This document shows positions 1 to 12,721 of a DNA stretch of 64,000 nt, in pieces. Each line of letters starts with the position of its first letter. The stretch's first letter is position 1. The translations under genes and the position numbers were made by a program. The DNA comes from a bacterium. GTDB lineage: Bacteria > UBP6 > UBA1177. The stretch is from assembly GCA_017645765.1 (NCBI GenBank), contig JAGCNV010000040.1, forward strand, positions 1 through 64,000. The letters are read 5' to 3'. The notes below the pieces were generated by a model. It saw only the letters and a list, made by a program, of their open reading frames with translations, ran no database searches and had not been told where the DNA came from.

Positions 1-110
1 AAATGGAACGAATGATCCTTGAATTTATTGAATATTATAACAACAGGCGAATTCAGAAAAAACTGAATTGGATGACACCTGTTGAATTTAGGTCTAAGAG
101 ATGTTATTAA
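1..110 (+). CDS. IS3-family transposase (OrfB), C-terminal end only
   Basis: The reading frame enters from outside the window and ends with TAA at 108-110. The visible 35 residues carry the hallmark end of IS3/IS150-type DDE integrases: YYNNRRIQKKL, followed by WMTPVEFR. In these enzymes this is the C-terminal helix just after the catalytic Glu. The catalytic residues themselves lie outside the window. The element is oriented left to right, so its right end must follow directly. Family assignment is strong from the motif; which IS it is cannot be told. Confidence 0.85.
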   Translation, partial: MERMILEFIEYYNNRRIQKKLNWMTPVEFRSKRCY

Positions 111-472
111 ACCGTGTCCAAAAAAATGGGGTCAGAACAGAGAGGGGTCGGGGTGAGGTCAGCAGCCGGCACAAACACGATCCTCTGATACATGTCACCC
201 ATCCGCGATCCCCTGATTTTTCCCGGCGTATGAGCAACAACCATCCTGAAATTCTCGAAAAACCTGCCGCAAAGTTCGTGACTCTCAAAAAACATCTGGG
301 AAGCGTTGCCGGTCTGGTTTCCCTCTTTATCAGTTGGCGAAATCATAAAAGCATCGCCGAAACGCCCGAAAGCAAACGTAACGCCTTTCTGAATCCAGTA
401 CTCCGCGTTCTTTTTCGCGCTCTCGACCAGCTCTTCATCCGTGTTGAATACCCTAATCCTCTTCGTCATCAC
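107..472 (-). CDS. Phage protein of unknown function with an IS-derived C-terminus
   Basis: No family is recognised. The 121-residue product starts MMTKRIRVFNTDEELVES behind AGAGG, ten bases after the Mor-like gene, so it belongs to the same early phage operon. Its last nine codons (SDPIFLDTV) lie inside the IS3 terminal repeat. The native 3' end has therefore been replaced by IS sequence and the protein is probably a truncated hybrid. The body is mixed alpha/beta with no signal peptide or membrane segment. Whether the product is still functional cannot be judged. Confidence 0.55.
   Translation of the reverse strand: MMTKRIRVFNTDEELVESAKKNAEYWIQKGVTFAFGRFGDAFMISPTDKEGNQTGNASQMFFESHELCGRFFENFRMVVAHTPGKIRGSRMGDMYQRIVFVPAADLTPTPLCSDPIFLDTV
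112..134 (+). repeat. Putative right terminal inverted repeat of the IS3-family element
   Basis: Directly after the transposase stop comes a stretch that, read from the outside inwards, begins TGACCCCATTTTTTTGGACA. IS3-family elements characteristically begin with TG and finish with CA and often have GACCCC-like tips. The CA at 133-134 is therefore the likely last base pair of the element. The partner repeat is outside the window, so the exact end is inferred. Confidence 0.6.
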
Positions 473-2267: not shown

Positions 2268-2552
2268 CTAATTTGCCAGCCTGATTACATTTTCCTGCAT
2301 CTCGTCCTTGCGCAGTTTTCTTGTCTGGACGATCTCGTTTTTAATAAGTTTGATTTCCTCGTTTTTCCTGGCAACCATCTGTTTTTTCTCTTCTTCCGCG
2401 AAGGCGAGTTTCGCGCTGTTCTCGAAGTGCTGATCCTTCATTTTCGCGATCTCGTCCTCAGTGTAGAAGACCTTGACCGGCATTTTGTCCTTCACCGCGG
2501 CATACATCGCCGGATCAAAATCGACGAATCTTCTTTCATTGCCTTTTTTCAT
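2268..2552 (-). CDS. Small coiled-coil phage protein
   Basis: A 94-residue product, start ATG after GAGGAGAAAG, overlapping the end of gemA by 17 bases and so probably translationally coupled. Residues 45-85 are rich in Lys and Glu with a helical periodicity that suggests a coiled coil (FAEEEKKQMVARKNEEIKLI). No family is recognised. The tight packing in the early operon supports it as a real gene. Confidence 0.6.
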   Translation of the reverse strand: MKKGNERRFVDFDPAMYAAVKDKMPVKVFYTEDEIAKMKDQHFENSAKLAFAEEEKKQMVARKNEEIKLIKNEIVQTRKLRKDEMQENVIRLAN

Positions 2553-3024
2553 CTTTCTCCTCCATTTTTTTGAGAATTACTATTACCTTTGACGCTTCCG
2601 CCCTCGTGAGCGTTTCCAGCGTCTTTCCGAATTTGTTGTAAATAAAACTGTCCAGAGCGGCTCTCTTTGCCTCGCTTCCTTCAGCGCGTGAGACCCTTGA
2701 CCAGATCGCGGTGATCGCGTAAACCTGCGCCTTAGTCGGCTTCACTACCTTTGACTTCGTTGATTGCGCCGGATAATATCCGGCTTTTGCATCCGGCATA
2801 ACCCCGGCAGCCCTCATCATCTCCGAGATCAGCCTGTTTGCCTGTGAACAAGTCATCTCTTTTGAGCTTTTCACGTTGTATTTGCCCAGAACCATCCGGT
2901 AAAAATCATCATCCCAGCCGAGCTTGCCTTTCAGCGTGTGTATCTGCTTGATCTGCTCTTTCGTTACCGCTGACTTCGTTTGTTGCGCCGGATCGTATCC
3001 GGCATTTGCATCCCGTTTCGTCAT
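2536..3024 (-). CDS. gemA: GemA/Gp16-type regulatory protein (DUF1018) with repeat insertions
   Basis: The 162-residue product matches the GemA/Gp16 family: TKEQIKQIHTLKGKLGWDDD, then a short helix pair with MTCSQANRLISEM, then a second helical half. In Mu, GemA influences host gene expression and DNA supercoiling. The start MTKRDANAG (3024) is chosen because AGGAGG lies 4-5 bases ahead; an upstream ATG would leave no spacer. Two related insertions, DANAGYDPAQQTKSAV at the N-terminus and DAKAGYYPAQSTKSKV between the halves, are encoded by palindromic DNA and look like added repeats rather than parts of the fold. Confidence 0.75.
   Translation of the reverse strand: MTKRDANAGYDPAQQTKSAVTKEQIKQIHTLKGKLGWDDDFYRMVLGKYNVKSSKEMTCSQANRLISEMMRAAGVMPDAKAGYYPAQSTKSKVVKPTKAQVYAITAIWSRVSRAEGSEAKRAALDSFIYNKFGKTLETLTRAEASKVIVILKKMEEKDEKRQ
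2769..2785. repeat. Palindromic coding repeat, copy 1 (gemA, internal)
   Basis: Perfect inverted repeat GCCGGAT-AAT-ATCCGGC inside the gemA frame, encoding the GYYPA part of the linker between the two halves. It is followed on the coding strand by GCAATCAACGAAGTCA, a flank shared with copy 2 and partly with transposase gene copies. Confidence 0.75.
2987..3003. repeat. Palindromic coding repeat, copy 2 (gemA, N-terminus)
   Basis: GCCGGAT-CGT-ATCCGGC, again in frame (GYDPA). On the coding strand it is preceded by GGGATGCAAAT and followed by GCAACAAACGAAG. Both flanks recur in the transposase gene around 5830-5890. Confidence 0.75.
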
Positions 3025-3034
3025 TCCCATCCTC

Positions 3035-3925
3035 CTACACAATCAGCATCTCGCTCGCGCCCTCGATGACAGCCTTGTCGATCTCGCACTCATTGAGCTG
3101 TGCTATCATCCCGGCTCTCGCAATCAGCTTTGCAAGGCGGCGCGTATTGCCGTAACACTCTTTCTGAAACGCCTTTATTGCCGGATTTGAAACATCCTCG
3201 AAAACGCTTTCTACAAGCATTTCAGTATCTTCCGGTTTCAATGGTTCAAGTTTCGACGAAACTCCGACCCTCGAAAAAAGCTGAGCGTATTCGCCCTGTT
3301 TCCCTCTCAGGTTGTAGAGCAGTCTCGGCATTCCGACGAGCAGGATCCCGATGTTTGCCTTGTCGTGGATCCGTCTCAGCATCTCAAGTGCGCGGTAGGG
3401 CAGCTGCTCCGCCTCGTCGATAATGATAAGCCTTCCCGAATCCTTCAGCTTCTTCACGATTGCTTCGAGAAGCGCATGTACATTGCGGGCTTTCGTGTCG
3501 ATACCGATCTTCTGGCAGATCTCCTGAAAAAGGATCTTTCCGTTGTAGCCGCAGTCCGCCTCGATCAGAATGACACCCTGATGCGCCGCCGCATACTGCT
3601 TCACAGCCCTTGTTTTTCCCAGACCGGCATCACCGTAGCAAAGCCCGATGTCGCAGCACAGATGCGCCATCTTTGCAACATCGAAAACCCTCATTGCAAT
3701 CGAAGTCTTCTGAAACGGAATCTCGTTCGGCGCAATACTTGTCTTTTCCGTTTCGCGCTTCAGATAGTCCTCGACCGCCTTTTCGATTTTTTCGTTGTCG
3801 CCCGTGTAAACACCCTTTAACCACTGACTGAACGCAGCCGCAGAAATACCCAGCTCCTTAGCCACAGCATTTCCGCTCTTCTTCTTCCGCTTCATCCATT
3901 GTTGAAGCTTGTCTTTTGTTTCCAT
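3035..3925 (-). CDS. B: MuB-like AAA+ ATPase, transposition target selector
   Basis: A 296-residue protein. Residues 10-45 form a helix-turn-helix (GNAVAKELGISAAAFSQWLKG) as in MuB. The ATPase core has Walker A GDAGLGKT and Walker B LIIIDEAEQL, followed by RIHDKANIGILLVG as sensor region. MuB coats target DNA with ATP, stimulates the transposase and gives target immunity. The ATG at 3925 has GGAGG at the proper distance; an ATG two codons upstream would touch the ribosome site. It sits directly downstream of the transposase gene, as in Mu, with gemA next. Confidence 0.85.
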   Translation of the reverse strand: METKDKLQQWMKRKKKSGNAVAKELGISAAAFSQWLKGVYTGDNEKIEKAVEDYLKRETEKTSIAPNEIPFQKTSIAMRVFDVAKMAHLCCDIGLCYGDAGLGKTRAVKQYAAAHQGVILIEADCGYNGKILFQEICQKIGIDTKARNVHALLEAIVKKLKDSGRLIIIDEAEQLPYRALEMLRRIHDKANIGILLVGMPRLLYNLRGKQGEYAQLFSRVGVSSKLEPLKPEDTEMLVESVFEDVSNPAIKAFQKECYGNTRRLAKLIARAGMIAQLNECEIDKAVIEGASEMLIV

Positions 3926-4009
3926 TGCCATCCTCCAAAAATATTGCCGCTCCCTAAACACCTTAGACACCCTAAACACCCTAAATTCCCTAAGGCTTCC
4001 TGCGGCTCG

Positions 4010-6163
4010 TCACTTCTTGTCGCTTTCAAAAAGAACCAGTTTCAACTTCGGCTTTTTCAGCCCCTGATCACCGCTTGCTTCGTTCATTCCCGCCGAATTT
4101 GATTCGGCGAATCGGTCATCAAACCGCGGCAGATCCCATGTTCCCTCTCTCTCCATTTTTTCCGCTTCCAGAACGACCTCGTCCATCTTGCTCCGTGCAA
4201 GTTCGATGATCTGCTGCTCTTCAAGCGTCGTATCGCCGCCGTTCACCGCTTCGATTCCTTTGGCCAGGTATTCCACAAGCTGAGACGGACTCTCGTTGAC
4301 CTTAACCTCGATATAACCTTTAATAATTTTCTGTTCTTTTCTCTTCCTCGCCATCTCGTCGGCAAGCTGCTGCTTTGAAGTCTCGCTGACAGCAAGAGCC
4401 GGAACAGCCCTGTGGATCTGAGCCTTGCCCATGAAATCATCCTTCTCGTCGAAGACCCACGCTTCCTCGTAATGGTCGAGATCGCGCCTTAAATAAGCAA
4501 GGTCTCCTTTCCGTCCGATCATCCACTCCGCCCAGTAGGTGACACCTAATTTACTATCGGTAATACCGTTGCGTCCGATCCTGACAGGCGAGCTCGTTCT
4601 CGTGCAGAAAAGCCTCAGAGCCTCCGGCGTGACCATCCGTTTCTGCGGCTTCTCCGAGTTCCAGAGCTGCAGCGGACTCATGCCGTTGAGGTTCTTTCCC
4701 TGCGATTTCGCCTTGTTGATGCAGTTTTCGATATAATCCGTGAAAACCTGCTTGAAATCGCTGAATTTCATGATTTTGCCCTGCGCAATCTCCTCTTTCA
4801 GCTTTTCCGGGCGTTCAACTACATTGCCGCCCCTGTAACCCGGCATATTTTTTGAAAAATACTGCTTGTTAGTGTTGAATTTGCGCTCTATCGGCTTCGT
4901 CTGCGCATTGTATGGAATAGCGAAATGCGGCGTGATCCCGAGCAGGCTCAGCATCGTGTTCGCCTTTTTCTGCTCCGCATCGTCCAGCTTCACCTTCACA
5001 AACGATCTGCCGCCTGCAAAGTCTTTCGACCGGTAATCCTTGCCGTTGTCCAGGATGACCTCTTTCGGCAGGCCGTATTTCTCCGCAGCCCGCTTGAAAC
5101 TGATGAAAATATGGTCACTGAAAGGAGCCTCGCAGTGGATATCGTAACCCACGAAAAGCCCGCTCTTGAAATCAGTCCACGCCGTAATCCACGGGAAGCA
5201 CACCTTGCCGTTCCTCTCGTCGAAAACAGCGACATCGACCTGCGCATGGTCGCTCACCCAGACCTCGCCGCAGCGGATAGCCGAGTAATCGCGCTCAGCG
5301 TGACTTGCACAAGTCCTGTACCATTTAGAATGACCCTTACGCGCCCGGATCTGCGCCTGTTCCGGCGTTTCGTTGTCCAGCCTCCGCAAGAAAGCACTCT
5401 CGCTCGGAATCGTCTCAGGATCGATCCCTTTTCCCGCAGCATAACCGACAGTGTACAGCCAGCACGAATGCGCACTCGGGCCGCCTTCCTTTATATACCG
5501 CGCACGGAAAAACTCATAAAGCTCGTCACTTACGCTTGTTTTTCCCACCGACTTGCCCCATTCCGGGAGCAGACCACGCAAACCGTCCTTCTTATAGTCC
5601 GCCCTTGCTCTCATTATCGAACGATAAGAAGTGCGGTTTTTCGGGTTATTATTATTCCATTCCGCAATCCTGTCTTTAAGCCTCTGACCGTTAAATGCCG
5701 AAAATCTTTGAAGCATCTCTATCTTCTCAGCCGCTTTCGCTCTCGCCCACGAAGGCGCATCCGTGAACTCCTCCGCATCGACCGATGCTTCGTCCATTGC
5801 CGCCGAATTTGATTCGGTGAATCGGTTTGCCACATTTGCATCCCGGCTCTCTTCTCCGCCGCTCCTACCGCTGAGCTTCGTTTGTTGCGACCTCTGAGTT
5901 TCGTCCATTGCCGCCGAATTTGATTCGGCGATTTGCTTTTCTTCCGCGGCGTTTTCATCGGCATTCTCCGCGGCTTCAATTATTTTCTGCCACTTCCTCG
6001 GCAGATCCTCGAACCGGTATAACTTTTCCGGTCTGCCGTTGGCCGTCGTTTTCCCCGAAAGTGAAAAAAGACCTGCGTCGTTGAGTTGCTTCAGGTTATA
6101 ATCAAGCATCCTGGCCGATATTCCTAAAGAACTAAATTCAGATCTTGAAAATAAATTCTGCAT
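4010..6163 (-). CDS. A: MuA-like DDE transposase with in-frame repeat insertions
   Basis: Transposase for integration and replicative transposition of the prophage. From the chosen ATG (6163) it is 717 residues, near the 663 of MuA. An N-terminal winged-helix-like part (ARMLDYNLKQLNDAGLFSL, then GRPEKLYRF) is followed by a repeat-rich linker. The catalytic core has VWVSDHAQVDV (first Asp), VILDNGKDYR (second Asp) and KPIERKF (Glu), and a C-terminal barrel and tail follow. The frame is open further upstream, but that part overlaps a small membrane-protein gene, so the later start is preferred. ESNSAAMDE-type peptides occur three times, twice in the linker and once near the C-terminus, each encoded by the same palindrome. 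Confidence 0.85.
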   Translation of the reverse strand: MQNLFSRSEFSSLGISARMLDYNLKQLNDAGLFSLSGKTTANGRPEKLYRFEDLPRKWQKIIEAAENADENAAEEKQIAESNSAAMDETQRSQQTKLSGRSGGEESRDANVANRFTESNSAAMDEASVDAEEFTDAPSWARAKAAEKIEMLQRFSAFNGQRLKDRIAEWNNNNPKNRTSYRSIMRARADYKKDGLRGLLPEWGKSVGKTSVSDELYEFFRARYIKEGGPSAHSCWLYTVGYAAGKGIDPETIPSESAFLRRLDNETPEQAQIRARKGHSKWYRTCASHAERDYSAIRCGEVWVSDHAQVDVAVFDERNGKVCFPWITAWTDFKSGLFVGYDIHCEAPFSDHIFISFKRAAEKYGLPKEVILDNGKDYRSKDFAGGRSFVKVKLDDAEQKKANTMLSLLGITPHFAIPYNAQTKPIERKFNTNKQYFSKNMPGYRGGNVVERPEKLKEEIAQGKIMKFSDFKQVFTDYIENCINKAKSQGKNLNGMSPLQLWNSEKPQKRMVTPEALRLFCTRTSSPVRIGRNGITDSKLGVTYWAEWMIGRKGDLAYLRRDLDHYEEAWVFDEKDDFMGKAQIHRAVPALAVSETSKQQLADEMARKRKEQKIIKGYIEVKVNESPSQLVEYLAKGIEAVNGGDTTLEEQQIIELARSKMDEVVLEAEKMEREGTWDLPRFDDRFAESNSAGMNEASGDQGLKKPKLKLVLFESDKK
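4092..4108. repeat. Palindromic coding repeat, copy 3 (transposase C-terminus)
   Basis: GCCGAAT-TTG-ATTCGGC within the transposase frame, encoding the ESNSAGMNEA tail peptide. It shares its arm layout with the gemA copies (GCCGRAT/ATYCGGC). Confidence 0.75.
5802..5818. repeat. Palindromic coding repeat, copy 4 (transposase linker)
   Basis: GCCGAATTTGATTCGGT, one arm base changed, in frame as ESNSAAMDEA. On the coding strand it is preceded by GGGATGCAAATG, the same flank as in gemA copy 2. Confidence 0.75.
5913..5929. repeat. Palindromic coding repeat, copy 5 (transposase linker)
   Basis: GCCGAAT-TTG-ATTCGGC, in frame as ESNSAAMDE. It is followed on the coding strand by CGCAACAAACGAAG, the flank that follows the palindrome in gemA copy 2. 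Confidence 0.75.
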
Positions 6164-6183
6164 TATTCGTGAAATCCGTTCCG

Positions 6184-6384
6184 TTAATTTTGTGTCGGTT
6201 TCATCGGCACATTCTTGTCGGTCCACCAGCTTTCGCACCATTCCGGCGCATCCTCGAATCTTGTGTATCCGCAGGCGCGCTCGACATCCTTGTCGATATC
6301 TCTCACAACCATCCACACCATCATCATCGTCATCGCTGCAAGCGCGATAAAGCTGAGAACCTCTTTCCATGTTGTGTTTTTCAT
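6184..6384 (-). CDS. Small phage membrane protein
   Basis: A 66-residue product with one clear membrane segment (SFIALAAMTMMMVWMVV, residues 10-26) and a charged tail with two Cys and three Trp. ATG 6384 follows GGAGGG at good spacing, and the stop lies just before the transposase gene. No family is recognised. Its overlap with the extended transposase frame is the reason for starting the transposase later. Confidence 0.6.
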   Translation of the reverse strand: MKNTTWKEVLSFIALAAMTMMMVWMVVRDIDKDVERACGYTRFEDAPEWCESWWTDKNVPMKPTQN

Positions 6385-6405
6385 GCGATTCCCTCCATTT
6401 TCCGT

Positions 6406-6627
6406 TTATTGCGCGGCGATTTGATCGGCGCATATAATGTTTTGTTTCCACCACTCCGCGAAACGCCCCGTCTTGAACACTCCGCGTTCGATCGATCTTT
6501 TAATTGCTGAGCTCTCAACTCCCAGCTCATCCGCTATCTCTTTTTGCGTTCTCTGATTGCGGATTAGATAGGCCTTGAACAAAACCTCTCTCTCTTTCAC
6601 CGCTTTCGGTTTCTTTACTTTTTTCAT
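6406..6627 (-). CDS. Small helix-turn-helix protein, first early gene of the prophage
   Basis: A 73-residue protein that starts after AGGAGG. Residues 14-45 form a helix-turn-helix (TQKEIADELGVESSAIKRSI) followed by a short aromatic tail. It occupies the place of Mu ner, immediately downstream of the operator and divergent from the repressor gene, so it may act as an early-promoter regulator. Sequence similarity to Ner itself is not evident. It could equally be a DNA-binding accessory protein. Confidence 0.6.
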   Translation of the reverse strand: MKKVKKPKAVKEREVLFKAYLIRNQRTQKEIADELGVESSAIKRSIERGVFKTGRFAEWWKQNIICADQIAAQ

Positions 6628-6681
6628 CATTCCTCCTAAAATAACGCCGATGGCAATATTTTGCCGTCAAATTCTTGCTCT

Positions 6682-6736: not shown

Positions 6737-7093
6737 ATGAATAACCGCCTAAAATTGCTCAGAAAAAAATTAGATTTAACGCAGACAGAGTTTGCTAAAA
6801 CTCTTGGAATTTCGCAGAATTTCCTTTCTGCCATTGAACACGGCGAAAGTAAGATCTCCACCGAATTATGTTTATCTTTATCCAAGATAAATGTTAATCT
6901 TAATTGGTTGATAGCAGGTGAGGGTCAAATGTTTCGCACTGCTTCTCAAAATGACACTTTAATAAATGAAATTATATCTATTTTAAAAACTCTGCCTCAA
7001 GATCGGCAAGAATTCGTTTTAAAAGTTGCTCAAGATCAAAAAAACTTGTCTGATTTACTTGAAAAATGTAGGTTGGATTGTCAAAAAATGTAG
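6737..7093 (+). CDS. XRE-family prophage repressor
   Basis: A 118-residue protein with a textbook N-terminal Cro/CI helix-turn-helix: MNNRLKLLRKKLDLTQTEFA, then LGISQNFLSAIEHGESKIS, then LCLSLSKINVNLNWLIAGEG. The C-terminal half is helical and lacks a visible peptidase domain. The longer upstream frame is rejected because ATG 6737 has GGAGG ahead, though with a long 13-base spacing. It is divergent from the early operon, as the lysogeny repressor is in Mu, so it most likely silences the early promoter. The last codons overlap the first repeat of the array at 7066-7134. Confidence 0.8.
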   Translation: MNNRLKLLRKKLDLTQTEFAKTLGISQNFLSAIEHGESKISTELCLSLSKINVNLNWLIAGEGQMFRTASQNDTLINEIISILKTLPQDRQEFVLKVAQDQKNLSDLLEKCRLDCQKM

Positions 7094-7134
7094 GTTGGAT
7101 TGTAGTTTGGAACGTCGAAATGTAAGTTGGATTG
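7066..7134. repeat. Three direct repeats ATGTAGGTTGGATTG, helically phased
   Basis: Copies lie at 7066-7080, 7088-7102 and 7120-7134 (the last reads ATGTAAGTTGGATTG). Start-to-start spacings are 22 and 32 bases, near two and three turns of the helix. They lie between the repressor gene and the inferred left end of the prophage, where Mu-type transposases bind their end sites. They are therefore candidate transposase-binding sites. The first copy is inside the 3' end of the repressor frame. Confidence 0.6.
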
Positions 7135-7137
7135 CCA

Positions 7138-7498
7138 AACTGCGCGTCGCAAAAAGCGAAGCTCAAAAGTAGCATGAGTTTGCATTGAGTATCATTTTTA
7201 ATGATTTCGGTATCTTGTCTTGATTTTGAGCCCTTTTGAGGTTTCAGAGCGCACCACACCGCGACCACGGCAAAAACCCAGTGATTAGGCTGACTTGAAC
7301 CCTGTCGCGTTTCGTCTCTCTCCACGCTCTTTTTTTCGTGAAAAGAAATCCGAATGCAAACCAAATGCGAACTTTTTGCGAAATTTGTGCCAAAATGCGC
7401 GTCGGACAAAACCACCACCCAAACACCCGCAACACACCAAAACCATTGAACATTTCGCCCACACCAAAAAACCGCCGTTGTGCCAAACTACTCATTCA
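7138..7498. other. Terminal segment of the prophage (left end), non-coding
   Basis: No convincing gene: frames here are open but low in coding character. GCCAAA plus A/CTGCGCGTCG occurs at 7134 and about 7391, and GCCAAACTACTC occurs near 7482. The segment ends where the specificity gene resumes. CA at 7497-7498 fits the TG...CA tip of Mu-type elements read from the other strand. An alternative prophage end is CA at 7136-7137, just after the direct repeats. Confidence 0.4.
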
Positions 7499-7753
7499 TT
7501 TATAACAATAGTAAGGATTCGGCTGATAAAATGCCTTACCAAACATATCTACAGTAATAGTTCCCGGGTTCCACAATTTTGATTTTTTACTCTCAATAAA
7601 TGCGACAATTCCATTGTTGGTTTTTCCAGAAGAAATTAATGGAGTGTCTCCTTGAACAATATTTTTAGGTTGAATATCATCTTTTGAAAGAACAGTCGTA
7701 AATAATTCTCCAATCTTAAATTTTTTCCATCCATTAGTGTTAATTTTTCCCAT
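7496..7753 (-). pseudogene. Type I-like specificity subunit (BcgIB/HsdS type), cut off by the prophage
   Basis: Only 85 residues remain. It begins MGKINTNGWKKFKIGELF and contains the hallmark of a target-recognition domain start: DTPLISSGKTNNGIVAF, then GTITVDMFGKAFYQPNPYY. A complete S subunit has two such domains and several hundred residues. After NPYYCY the frame hits TGA at the presumed junction. The gene overlaps the end of the methylase/nuclease gene by 14 bases, the normal operon arrangement. The rest of the gene is expected beyond the prophage, left of the window. Confidence 0.75.
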
Positions 7754-9569
7754 TTTTGTCCCCAGCCTTGATTGATATATTTATACTGTCACAGACTTGG
7801 CTAATATCGCTTGAATACATCGTTGCTGACAACAAATTATCTTCAAATTTTTTTGCATCAATCCCCAGTTGAAACATGGTATAATCCATCGCTGTTTTTA
7901 TGAAATCTTCTTCAAATATCTCAAACGGTTTTTCCGGCATCTGATAGGAAAGATGTTCTGACGGCTTTATCCATTGAGCTGTTCCGTATTTATCATCACG
8001 AAGTTTTGATACACAATCTACCCAATAATTTTCTATTTCAGACCATTTGCCACGAACATCGTGCCTACCTTTATTCTTTACTGTTTGCAGTCCATCAGTT
8101 TCCATATAACAAGCAAAAATTTCATTGTCGCCTTGGGGAACACCTGCTTCAAATACAAAAATTGATGTCGTAACACCTACTCCGAAAAACAAGTCTTCTG
8201 GCATCTTGATTATTTTTGTAATCTTATGATTTTTAAGAATTCTCTTTATTTGTTTTGTAGTTGTCTTTTCCAATTTTTTGTCAGGAAGAATAAAACCACA
8301 AAGTGTGGATACCGGAACATTGTCCAAGACATTTTCAACTATATCCATACATCCATATTTCCTTTCGTACGGAGGATTCATAAGCACTTTTGTAATTTTT
8401 TGCTTTTTTATCCAATTTCCAGCTTCAGAGGTTCTTGTATCCAACTGTTCTATATTTGTTTTCCCATCCTTATGAATAAGCATGTTTGCACAAACCAGAG
8501 CATATATTTGTTTATCATATTCGATGCCATAAAGTTGCTTTTGCTTAATTTCTGTAGCCTTTGTTGTTTGAACTCCTCCAGCCTCTTGAATCATATTAGC
8601 CATAGCTTTTACAAGGAATCCACCTGATCCACATGTCGCATCCAAAACACGATCATTTTCATTTACATTTAGAATCTTATACATGAAATCAGTAATATGT
8701 TCTGGAGTAAAGACCTGTCCAGCTTCTGTTTTTTTCTTGTAACGATTGAATTCATTAAAAAAAATGGCCATCACATCTTCGCCGCGCCATGCGTCAGAAT
8801 TAAGACAATCAGAGATTTCCGCAACCCAGTCAATAAATGTTCCAATAAGATCTTTAACATGCTGCTGCCCTTTCTCATCTTCGCTTTGAACATCAAGATT
8901 CATTTTAATGCTGGAAAATACTTCGGTTAATATATCCAATTTTCTGTTTTGTTGTTTATCTTTAAAGAGTTCTTTGTTTAAACAATTCAAAATTCCATTA
9001 TGAAACTCTGAATAATCCATTCCTTTAACCATTGTGGCATTGTATCGTTTTGCAACCAGGGCGCAAGCTGTGAAAATCATTCTATGATATAGATCTTTAA
9101 TGCCAAAATCAAAATGCAAACTGTTATTTATTCTTGCAGTAAGTTCATAAATACGTTCCTTGTCAATTTTATCCGCTTTAAATAGAGCAAGATAGTATTC
9201 CAGATTCTGAAGTTTTTTTACAGTTTCTACCTCGTCATGATTTTTAAAAACACGAATTTCTTCTCCATTATAAAGAATTCCGACAACTTTTTTATATTGT
9301 TTTTCTATAATTCTGACATTCTTCAACACTTCTTCAACTTGTTTAGCACCAAGTGGGATAGAAGAGGCCTTTGTTTCAAGTACGATAGCCACATCAGCAT
9401 GATTATAAGGAAGGTACCAGCCATCAGGTTTATCTTTCACACCATTAAAACCAAGTTGGTTAAATGTTGTCAACTGACCGACACCGCAGTTAACACCTTC
9501 TTTGTTTTCAAATCCAAGAATTTTTTTGGCCAAATCTCTCACTTGATCTTCAGTCATTTGTTTTGCCAT
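7740..9569 (-). CDS. BcgI-like restriction endonuclease-adenine methyltransferase fusion (RM subunit)
   Basis: A 609-residue fusion. The N-terminal PD-(D/E)XK-like nuclease part shows KPDGWYLPYNHADVAIVLETK. Then comes a helical linker and an N6-adenine methyltransferase with motif I DATCGSGGF and motif IV NPPY. BcgI-type enzymes cut and methylate only with an S subunit, which here is truncated next door. The system should therefore be disabled unless a complete S protein exists elsewhere. ATG 9569 (MAKQMTEDQVRDLAKKI) follows AAGGAG. The gene is AT-rich relative to its surroundings, which suggests acquisition by transfer. Confidence 0.8.
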   Translation of the reverse strand: MAKQMTEDQVRDLAKKILGFENKEGVNCGVGQLTTFNQLGFNGVKDKPDGWYLPYNHADVAIVLETKASSIPLGAKQVEEVLKNVRIIEKQYKKVVGILYNGEEIRVFKNHDEVETVKKLQNLEYYLALFKADKIDKERIYELTARINNSLHFDFGIKDLYHRMIFTACALVAKRYNATMVKGMDYSEFHNGILNCLNKELFKDKQQNRKLDILTEVFSSIKMNLDVQSEDEKGQQHVKDLIGTFIDWVAEISDCLNSDAWRGEDVMAIFFNEFNRYKKKTEAGQVFTPEHITDFMYKILNVNENDRVLDATCGSGGFLVKAMANMIQEAGGVQTTKATEIKQKQLYGIEYDKQIYALVCANMLIHKDGKTNIEQLDTRTSEAGNWIKKQKITKVLMNPPYERKYGCMDIVENVLDNVPVSTLCGFILPDKKLEKTTTKQIKRILKNHKITKIIKMPEDLFFGVGVTTSIFVFEAGVPQGDNEIFACYMETDGLQTVKNKGRHDVRGKWSEIENYWVDCVSKLRDDKYGTAQWIKPSEHLSYQMPEKPFEIFEEDFIKTAMDYTMFQLGIDAKKFEDNLLSATMYSSDISQVCDSINISIKAGDKNGKN

Positions 9570-9652: not shown

Positions 9653-9731
9653 AATTTTATTAAATAATTTTAAAATTTAAATATTAGACAATGTTGAGTC
9701 GGAGAATGAGGAAATGCGAGTGGTGATTGCG
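9653..9731. repeat. ~75 bp dispersed repeat, copy 1
   Basis: An AT-rich lead (ATTTTAAAATTTAAATATTA) followed by the core GACAATGTTGAGTC-GGAGAATGAGGAAATGCGAG. Copies 2 and 3 are at 10901 and 11899. It lies in the 277 bp between the restriction gene and the ORF6N gene. Nothing else was recognised there except a small GTCG/CGAC inverted repeat near 9736. Confidence 0.7.
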
Positions 9732-9846
9732 TTGTGTCGCCACGAAAAGACGACAATTTTTAATTTAAAATCAAAATTTATTGATAAAAACTTAAATTAC
9801 AGTATAAGCATGTTGTTAAAAAATTGTTTCTTGGGGATGACTGTAT

Positions 9847-10869
9847 ATGGAAAATAATTTGCCGGAACATGAAAATTTTAGCTCGAAAAACGAGCTGGAG
9901 TTATTTGAGTCAATAGATAAAAACAAAGTGAAATCACAGATTTACGAGATTCGCGGAATACGTGTTATGTTAGACAGAGATATTGCTGCATATTTCGGTG
10001 TTACAACTGGAAATCTGAATAAAGCAATGAAACGAAACATTAAGAGATTTCCGCCAAAGTTCTGTTTTATGCTCACAAAAGAGGAATACCGGGAAATTCT
10101 AAGATTCCAAACTGGAATCTTAGAATTGGAACAAGGTAAATACTCAAAATATTTGCCTTATGTCTACACCGAACACGGACTTTCGATGCTGACATCCGTG
10201 CTGCACACGGACAGAGCGATTGAAGCAAGCATTTTGATAATGGAAGTTTTTGTCGAAGTCGCGCATTATGTCAGGCAAAACGCCCAGCTGATTCCGTATC
10301 AGGAGCTTAAACTTCTGCAAAGCAGACAGGATTTGCTGTCCGAAAAGATTCAAGGAATTGAAGATAGTATGGTTACAAAAACCGATGTTATTAAAATTAT
10401 TGAAGACTTCAGCAACAACGAAATAAAAAAGGATTTTCTCTTTTTAAATGGAAAAGTTGTCGAAGCTGATCTTGCTTATCAGCAGATTTATGCTGAAGCG
10501 AAAGAAACGATTTTTGTGATTGACAATTATATCGGCTTGAAAACGCTCGTTCTGCTGAAATCAGCGAAGAAAGATGTAAAAATCACTATATTTTCAGACA
10601 ATATCCATCATGGTCTGCACAAAAAGGAACTTGATGATTTTACTAAGGAATATCCGCACATTGTAATTTCTTTCAAAAAGACAGACGGTATTTTTCACGA
10701 CAGATACATCATGCTCGATTTTGATACCGAAAACGAAAAAATATACCACTGCGGCGCATCGTCGAAAGATGCCGGAAACAAAGTCTGTTCTATTTCTTCA
10801 ACAGCAGATCACAATATGTATAAACCGCTGATTGAAAATCTGTTGACTAATCCGAAACTTGTTTTATGA
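9847..10869 (+). CDS. ORF6N-domain protein with a C-terminal PLD-like domain
   Basis: A 340-residue protein. Residues 35-120 form an ORF6N DNA-binding domain of the kind shared by phage antirepressors: IRGIRVMLDRDIAAYFGV, then NIKRFPPKFCFMLTKEE, then YVYTEHGLSML. A helical connector follows. The C-terminal part (200-330) resembles a degenerate phospholipase D-like fold (TIFVIDNYIGLKTLVLLKSA, then FHDRYIMLDFD and GASSKDAGNKVCSI). Proteins of this layout are common in accessory islands, with a role that is not settled. It stands alone between two copies of the ~75 bp repeat, with no partner gene. Confidence 0.75.
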   Translation: MENNLPEHENFSSKNELELFESIDKNKVKSQIYEIRGIRVMLDRDIAAYFGVTTGNLNKAMKRNIKRFPPKFCFMLTKEEYREILRFQTGILELEQGKYSKYLPYVYTEHGLSMLTSVLHTDRAIEASILIMEVFVEVAHYVRQNAQLIPYQELKLLQSRQDLLSEKIQGIEDSMVTKTDVIKIIEDFSNNEIKKDFLFLNGKVVEADLAYQQIYAEAKETIFVIDNYIGLKTLVLLKSAKKDVKITIFSDNIHHGLHKKELDDFTKEYPHIVISFKKTDGIFHDRYIMLDFDTENEKIYHCGASSKDAGNKVCSISSTADHNMYKPLIENLLTNPKLVL

Positions 10870-10900: not shown

Positions 10901-10979
10901 GATTTTATTGAATGATTTTGAAATTTAGATATTAGGCAATGTTGAGTCTGAGAATGAGGAAATGCGAGTGGCGATTGCG
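10901..10979. repeat. ~75 bp dispersed repeat, copy 2
   Basis: Same AT-rich lead and same core as copy 1; GTTGAGTCTGAGAATGAGGA and AAATGCGAGTGG are unchanged apart from single bases. It separates the ORF6N gene from the HigBA pair. The remaining gap to 11059 shows no feature. Confidence 0.7.
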
Positions 10980-11058
10980 GAAAAACTTATTTTGTTGAGC
11001 GGATTTTTACGAATTGATTTCGGTTGTGTTTAACTACGTTTATATTTTGCGGAAAAAA

Positions 11059-11898: not shown

Positions 11899-11972
11899 AA
11901 ATTTATCAATTTTAAAATTTAAATATTAGACAATATTGAGTCTGAGAATAATGAAATGCGAGCGGTGTTTAC
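11899..11972. repeat. ~75 bp dispersed repeat, copy 3
   Basis: The core AATATTGAGTCTGAGAATAA and TGAAATGCGAGCGG is slightly more diverged than copies 1 and 2. It closes the HigBA cassette and runs into the last codons of the flavodoxin gene. Confidence 0.65.
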
Positions 11973-12721
11973 ATTGCGCCATCCGGCGAAGAGGCGATTT
12001 TTTTCACCCATTCAATGACTTTGGGAAGTGCTGTCTTGACCTCATCGTCATATACCGAAAGCGTCAGAGGGCTTACCTTTGCCGAGGTCCATTTCGGGGT
12101 ATCCTTGATCGCGTTTCCGAAACCGCTGCCGCCGTGCGTTACCAGAGAATAAAGGGTCTTGCCTTCAAGTTTATTTTCAGTCAGGAATTTCTGCACAGGA
12201 ACGGGAAGCGTCCAGTGCCAGAGCGGATAAACCAGAATGACCGTATCGTAACCGGAAAGATCCGGTGCAGTGCCTTCAAGTTCAACAGGCTTTTCTCCCT
12301 GAAACTCTTTGGTGGCTTCGATAACGGTGTCAACATAGCTTGAAGGGTATTTGTTTTTTGTCTTTATCGCGTAGAGCGGATAACCAGTGGCATTTGCAAT
12401 CATTTTCGACAAAAGTTCGCTGTTCCCCGCAAGTTTTCCGCCGTCATTCATTAAAGAGGCGCTGGATACCGCATCGACATCCTTTGCAAAATCGGTGTTT
12501 CCGACTCTGGTAAAATAAACGATGATCCCTTTCTTCCCTTTCATGTCGATCTGTTCAGTACGAGTCGCCTGTTCACGGTCGATATTCACCGTCCGGAAGT
12601 GCCTTCTGATGTAGGAAACTCCGAAAAGCGCAAAAAGCACGACCGCAAGCACCAGAACCGCTGAAATCACCGAATAACGCACTTTGTGCGCAGAAATTTC
12701 ATTCCGCAATTTTGAGAACAT
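11969..12721 (-). CDS. Membrane-anchored flavodoxin-like protein
   Basis: A 250-residue protein. ATG 12721 is chosen for the AAGGAG seven bases upstream. Residues 14-36 are a membrane anchor (YSVISAVLVLAVVLFALFG). A flavodoxin-like fold follows: IIVYFTRVGNTDFAK is the FMN phosphate loop, YDTVILVYPLWHWTLP the second cofactor loop and YSLVTHGGSGFGN the third. The domain should face the periplasm, which is unusual for an FMN electron carrier. It is the last gene of a run with a cupin lipoprotein and an exported carboxymuconolactone decarboxylase-like protein. Confidence 0.75.
   Translation of the reverse strand: MFSKLRNEISAHKVRYSVISAVLVLAVVLFALFGVSYIRRHFRTVNIDREQATRTEQIDMKGKKGIIVYFTRVGNTDFAKDVDAVSSASLMNDGGKLAGNSELLSKMIANATGYPLYAIKTKNKYPSSYVDTVIEATKEFQGEKPVELEGTAPDLSGYDTVILVYPLWHWTLPVPVQKFLTENKLEGKTLYSLVTHGGSGFGNAIKDTPKWTSAKVSPLTLSVYDDEVKTALPKVIEWVKKIASSPDGAM

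Follow-up and report, generated by a model that had tools for sequence, protein, structure and literature searches.

Introduction

Type IIB restriction-modification systems such as BcgI and BsaXI consist of an RM subunit, in which nuclease and methyltransferase are fused, and a specificity subunit (S) encoded by an overlapping or adjacent gene. The A subunit of BcgI alone neither methylates nor cleaves DNA (PMC1892151). BsaXI has been reconstituted from RM plus S; a half S made of TRD1-CR1 was active with a new specificity, and deletion of CR1 plus 15 domain residues from S abolished expression (PMC9159934).

Transposable phages of the Mu and B3 kind carry at their left end, in order, transposase end sites, a divergent repressor, a Ner-like protein, MuA, MuB, GemA, and a late activator. 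Their different copies have unrelated flanks, their tips are TG-CA, and a complete genome with late genes measures 34-39 kb. Transposable prophages with TA-TA ends have been reported in Leptospira (WETA1 and others), where a Mu/B3-type transposase is accompanied by TA at both phage ends and a 6-bp duplication, and their occurrence in other bacteria was left for investigation by the authors (PMC8705779).

Here we describe a locus in which the left end of a Mu/B3-like phage with a TATA tip interrupts the S gene of a BcgI-like system. The window under study comprises the first 64 kb of C49 (JAGCNV010000040.1), one of the 109 contigs of a 99%-complete assembly.

Results

An intact RM gene is followed by a truncated S gene

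The RM gene occupies positions 7740 to 9566 on the minus strand. Its reading frame is intact from the ATG at 9566 and encodes 608 aa with an N6 methyltransferase and a predicted N-terminal nuclease region (PADLOC type IIG, 2.6e-40). The invariant N-terminal E-x-K as well as the GSG and NPP motifs are kept, which bears out the preliminary description of this gene as intact, and the protein is 76-81% identical to homologues in rumen Firmicutes assemblies (L016-L018). The best fold matches of the structure model (mean pLDDT 79.6) were Type I M subunits, and BsaXI, BpuSI, and DrdV were also matched. As in BcgI, nuclease and N6 methyltransferase thus appear to be fused in one polypeptide, the nuclease being predicted, whereas the RM protein of BsaXI is longer (916 aa).

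The S gene starts within the 3′ end of the RM gene, as it does in relatives. Its remaining host-coded part spans 7505 to 7753 (minus strand) and comprises 83 codons, the last of which is Cys83, as judged by a Methylase_S match, alignments with S homologues, and an S profile. The corresponding ORF (7496-7753, minus strand) has 85 aa, and its product is recognized as a specificity domain by both Pfam (Methylase_S, 34.9 bits; cut-off 22) and PADLOC (Specificity_II, 5.5e-12). When the whole genome was searched with a profile built from 11 intact S proteins, this stump alone matched (3.5e-26), over the part of the profile that represents the second domain. The RM gene is likewise the only match in its own genome at E below 1e-20, so that one S fragment and one RM gene are all that the genome holds of this family.

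S homologues near the RM genes of relatives share at most 51% identity with the stump, and their BLAST alignments end at residues 81-83. The S proteins of the relatives have 328-376 aa or are one-domain forms of 144-252 aa; at two loci (L071 and L072), a crude ORF search returned only fragments of S. A separate S subunit with two recognition domains, as in BcgI and BsaXI, is present in relatives, about half of which have a one-domain S, whereas in this genome S is destroyed: the stump, judged against its homologues, is without about half its recognition domain and all of the conserved helical region. Many of the RM-gene relatives (L025, L038, L039, L047-L055, and others) are followed by a one-domain S of about 144-226 aa, and half-size S subunits seem normal in this RM family.

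The S gene is cut by the left end of a Mu-like phage

The homology of S stops at Cys83 (7507-7505) and that of the phage starts at 7504, so the junction can be read directly and is the cut by a Mu-like phage end that the preliminary description had proposed. That description placed the cut after 85 residues; this is indeed the length of the ORF, but only 83 residues are encoded by the host. The first nine phage bases (7496-7504, minus strand) read as Tyr84-Lys85-stop in the S frame and form TATAAATGA, the terminus common to related phages.

The noncoding, attL-like left end extends over 7132-7504 (minus strand) with its 5′-TATA tip at 7504. Between about 7132 and 7504 the window is nearly identical to loci L084 and L095, beyond which the flanks diverge, and we therefore regard this segment as phage DNA. 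An end at 7137 with unrelated DNA in between, a possibility that had been raised against this insertion, does not apply, because the whole segment is phage-end DNA shared with other phages. Three candidate transposase sites resembling GTGCCAAA(A/C)TGCGCG were located in it by a motif scan (7480-7494, 7387-7401, and 7132-7146). MuA of the phages in L084 (a viral contig, G029), L095 (G014), and L096 (G027), the latter two from the same genus, is 88-91% identical to that of the window.

TATAA opens all four left ends compared (those of the window, L084, L095, and L096), and the sequence before it differs in each. The flanks also differ among the window, G029 (two flanks), G014, G027, and G028, as found with insertion at many unrelated sites. 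In the G029 viral contig (L084 and L098), each of the two ends borders a different, unrelated host gene, which is what DNA from a phage population with many insertion sites would show. In a phylum search, the sequence of the right G029 flank (GCAATAC...) occurred in 13 genomes, in none of which it is preceded by TATA; that of the left flank (...TTTCTCGG) belonged to another gene, found in three genomes without TATA after it. Host homologues of both flanks diverge from the phage contig exactly at TATA, and TATA is thus best read as the phage terminus. Moreover, the left ends (TATAAATGAATGAGTAGTTTGGCAC) align in register with the right ends read inward, TATAACGCCGCGCGCAGTTTGGCAC in G028 and TATACCCCCCCGCGCAATTTGGCAC in G029. 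On these comparisons, the best reading is that the phage starts at 7504 directly after the last host codon; the CA at 7497-7498, which had been suggested as a Mu-type tip, is not the end, the real tip being the TATA that starts at 7504.

The remnant carries an early region in Mu order

Next to the left end lies a repressor-like HTH protein (6737-7093, plus strand; HTH_3, 1.4e-11; PHROG transcriptional regulators), divergent from the transposase. The genes that follow are all on the minus strand. A small DNA-binding protein in the Ner position (6406-6630) was assigned from weak PHROG DNA-binding matches and its position, and next comes a MuA-like DDE transposase with an uncertain start codon (4010-6454; HTH_Tnp_Mu_2; phrog_310 transposase, 5.9e-85), which by sequence resembles TnsB among solved structures (PDB, 2.5e-17). 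A MuB-like ATPase (3035-3979; phrog_296 DNA transposition protein, 1.8e-87; AAA_22), a GemA homologue (2536-3042; Pfam GemA, 7e-16), a DUF3164 phage protein (894-1508; Pfam, 2.6e-46), and a late-activator-like protein in the Mor/C position (482-790; phrog_836, 7e-07; 92% identical in L084 by tblastn) complete the series. The early genes are thus in Mu order, and a MuA-like transposase and a MuB-like ATPase adjoin the left end. The last phage gene (107-472) is cut by an insertion sequence (IS), and its homologous ORF in L101 (G014) continues normally. Unlike Mu and B3, the contig has only the early region, about 7.4 kb.

The contig stops in an IS3-family element

At positions 1-139 (plus strand), the contig stops in the 3′ end of an IS3-family element that is present in many copies (98% match to L098, 5210-5348); seven other contig ends are alike. 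Many contig breaks in this assembly are copies of this one element, with overlaps of ~139 bp; of such contig ends, eight carry its 5′ end and eight its 3′ end. As window base 1 is also the first base of C49, the contig holds nothing farther left. The preliminary description had supposed a whole prophage whose right end, target duplication, and S remainder would lie to the left; instead, a left-end remnant of 7.4 kb reaches the IS end at the contig start, and none of the three was found in the assembly. Searches of the 99%-complete genome turned up neither phage late DNA, nor the phage right-end motif, nor (by profile) the S remainder, and phage late genes are missing from all eight contig ends that carry the IS 5′ end. 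Two other S-like genes were considered as the missing remainder and rejected: that on contig C25 is a Type I-like fragment without a match to the S profile, and that on C33 is part of a Type I locus that has an M gene of its own.

Synteny with two other genomes, G018 and G023, bears on what once lay to the left. In these, the region homologous to the end of contig C94 is located about 12.5 and 17 kb, respectively, to the left of the region homologous to the window from 11.9-12.0 kb on. C94 terminates in an IS 5′ end about 70 bases past the end of this homology. The intervening host genes of G018 (larC and others, named from reading the translations) have only short repeat matches in the present genome. 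The IS is flanked by GCT on C94 and GAG on C49, without a 3-bp duplication, as would be expected after a deletion, although the wrong ends may also have been paired. Pairing of IS ends by such duplications was tried as well; three pairs fit, and C49 had no match. Adjacency in the order C94, IS, C49 together with an IS-linked deletion is the simplest account that the synteny suggests.

Related phages have TA-TA ends

TATA is present at four left and two right ends, in place of the TG-CA termini of Mu-like phages. Both TA end types are found in the related phages of G028 and G029, and the window retains the left end only. As the two right ends share the terminus in register, the lineage has TA-TA rather than TG-CA ends. 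No related copy has both ends at one site, and a target duplication (5 or 6 bp in Mu-like phages) is therefore not visible in them.

Most hits of a 15-base end-motif scan over viral contigs were due to chance, but four were TG-tipped right ends. In these, which belong to other phages (L189, L204, L226, and L234), the TTTGGCAC site is as far from the tip as in the present lineage, and the tips are canonical TGTA.

Compared with the Leptospira prophages, the present copy is a remnant in a different bacterial lineage. Since the phylum-wide search around the window's organism took in only 28 genomes, we infer that this organism appears to lie outside the phylum of Leptospira.

Repeats and a candidate defence gene adjoin the locus

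In the window, an ORF6N gene and a toxin-antitoxin-like pair are set apart by three copies (9659-9761, 10907-11009, and 11901-12003) of a repeat about 75-103 bp long. This repeat also occurs between other genes in G022, in G023, and on another contig of the same assembly (C89), as if such repeats bound exchangeable cassettes. The ORF6N-domain protein (9847-10869) strongly matches a PADLOC candidate defence family (PDC-S05, 3.8e-96), and in G022 its homologue, with the same neighbour, adjoins a Type III-like RM system. Contigs G022:C25 and G023:C2 (L160, L163, and L167) represent one chromosomal spot. Because the gene sets there differ among relatives and include Type III-like restriction genes in both G022 and G023 (named from reading the translations), this spot is suggested to be a defence hotspot.

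Discussion

Our analysis very probably captures the history of the locus as follows. A phage of the Mu/B3 kind landed directly after codon 83 in the S gene of a BcgI-like system (RM plus S), whose S protein now ends two residues on, at the stop codon within the phage tip. Later, an IS3-family element within the prophage probably gave rise to a deletion in which the late region and right end of the phage were lost together with the remainder of S and some conserved host genes; what stayed was the 7.4 kb early-region remnant and an RM subunit that would be inactive without S.

One could place the phage boundary differently and take TATA as a preferred host target, with the phage starting just after it or at the TG (7498) with normal TG-CA tips. 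Every junction seen does have TATA, and the G029 flanks joined on GGTATA gave an open frame. That frame is a product of chance, however, because the flanks come from unrelated host genes; GGTATA was accordingly dropped as a target duplication, and the same flank data ruled out a strict TATA target preference. Homologues of these genes are without TATA at that position, left and right ends come into register with TATA counted as phage, four other right ends have TGTA there, and the G027 left end has TT, not TG, at the aligned position, which together make TATA as a target improbable. A different objection concerns what is absent. Fragmented assemblies easily lose prophage contigs, and as this one is broken at IS copies and C49 ends in a multicopy IS, the prophage could be whole and the S remainder present on a missing contig between two IS copies. 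We hold this to be possible but doubtful: the late genes, right end, and S remainder are without trace in a 99%-complete assembly, the lost piece would also have to contain the absent host genes (larC and others), and synteny sets C94, with its IS end, beside C49.

A stump that serves as a half-size S and gives RM a new palindromic specificity is very unlikely. The family has many one-domain S proteins, and the half S of BsaXI was active (PMC9159934), but the natural half S proteins here have at least 144 aa and mostly carry the conserved helical motif, whereas the stump ends inside the domain; the BsaXI deletion that abolished expression (PMC9159934) argues in the same direction. Hardly any probability attaches to another S protein acting in trans. 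S-like genes do exist on contigs C7, C10, C25, and C33, but none matches the family S profile even at E 10; the gene on C25 is a Type I-like fragment, and the one on C33 lies with a Type I M gene of its own.

The best reading is instead that loss of S silences the RM protein, which would neither cut nor methylate. This reading follows BcgI, in which the RM subunit alone does neither (PMC1892151), as the preliminary description had claimed for BcgI-type enzymes, and it takes into account that the stump is without about half its domain and all of the conserved region. Of the two outcomes foreseen there for the restriction barrier, loss is thus favored, and a changed specificity is unlikely for the same structural reasons. 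BcgI-type enzymes cut on both sides of a bipartite site. Among the papers listed by a literature search, none described a Mu-like prophage inserted in the S gene of a Type IIB system. As an insertional inactivation the effect is of an ordinary type; the phage ends are less so, and modestly interesting.

The loss of S should be harmless to the cell because cutting and methylation fail together. A single phage insertion, here resolved to the base, can thus remove a Type IIB barrier without killing its host. The phage ends speak to a question that was left open in print (PMC8705779), namely whether transposable phages of the TA-TA type are confined to Leptospira. A Mu/B3-like TA-TA lineage probably exists outside Leptospira, apparently in another phylum, which would mean that the terminal-base rule has been relaxed more widely or more than once. 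Natural TA- and TG-tipped ends with equal site spacing provide material with which the needs of the transposase may be tested directly.
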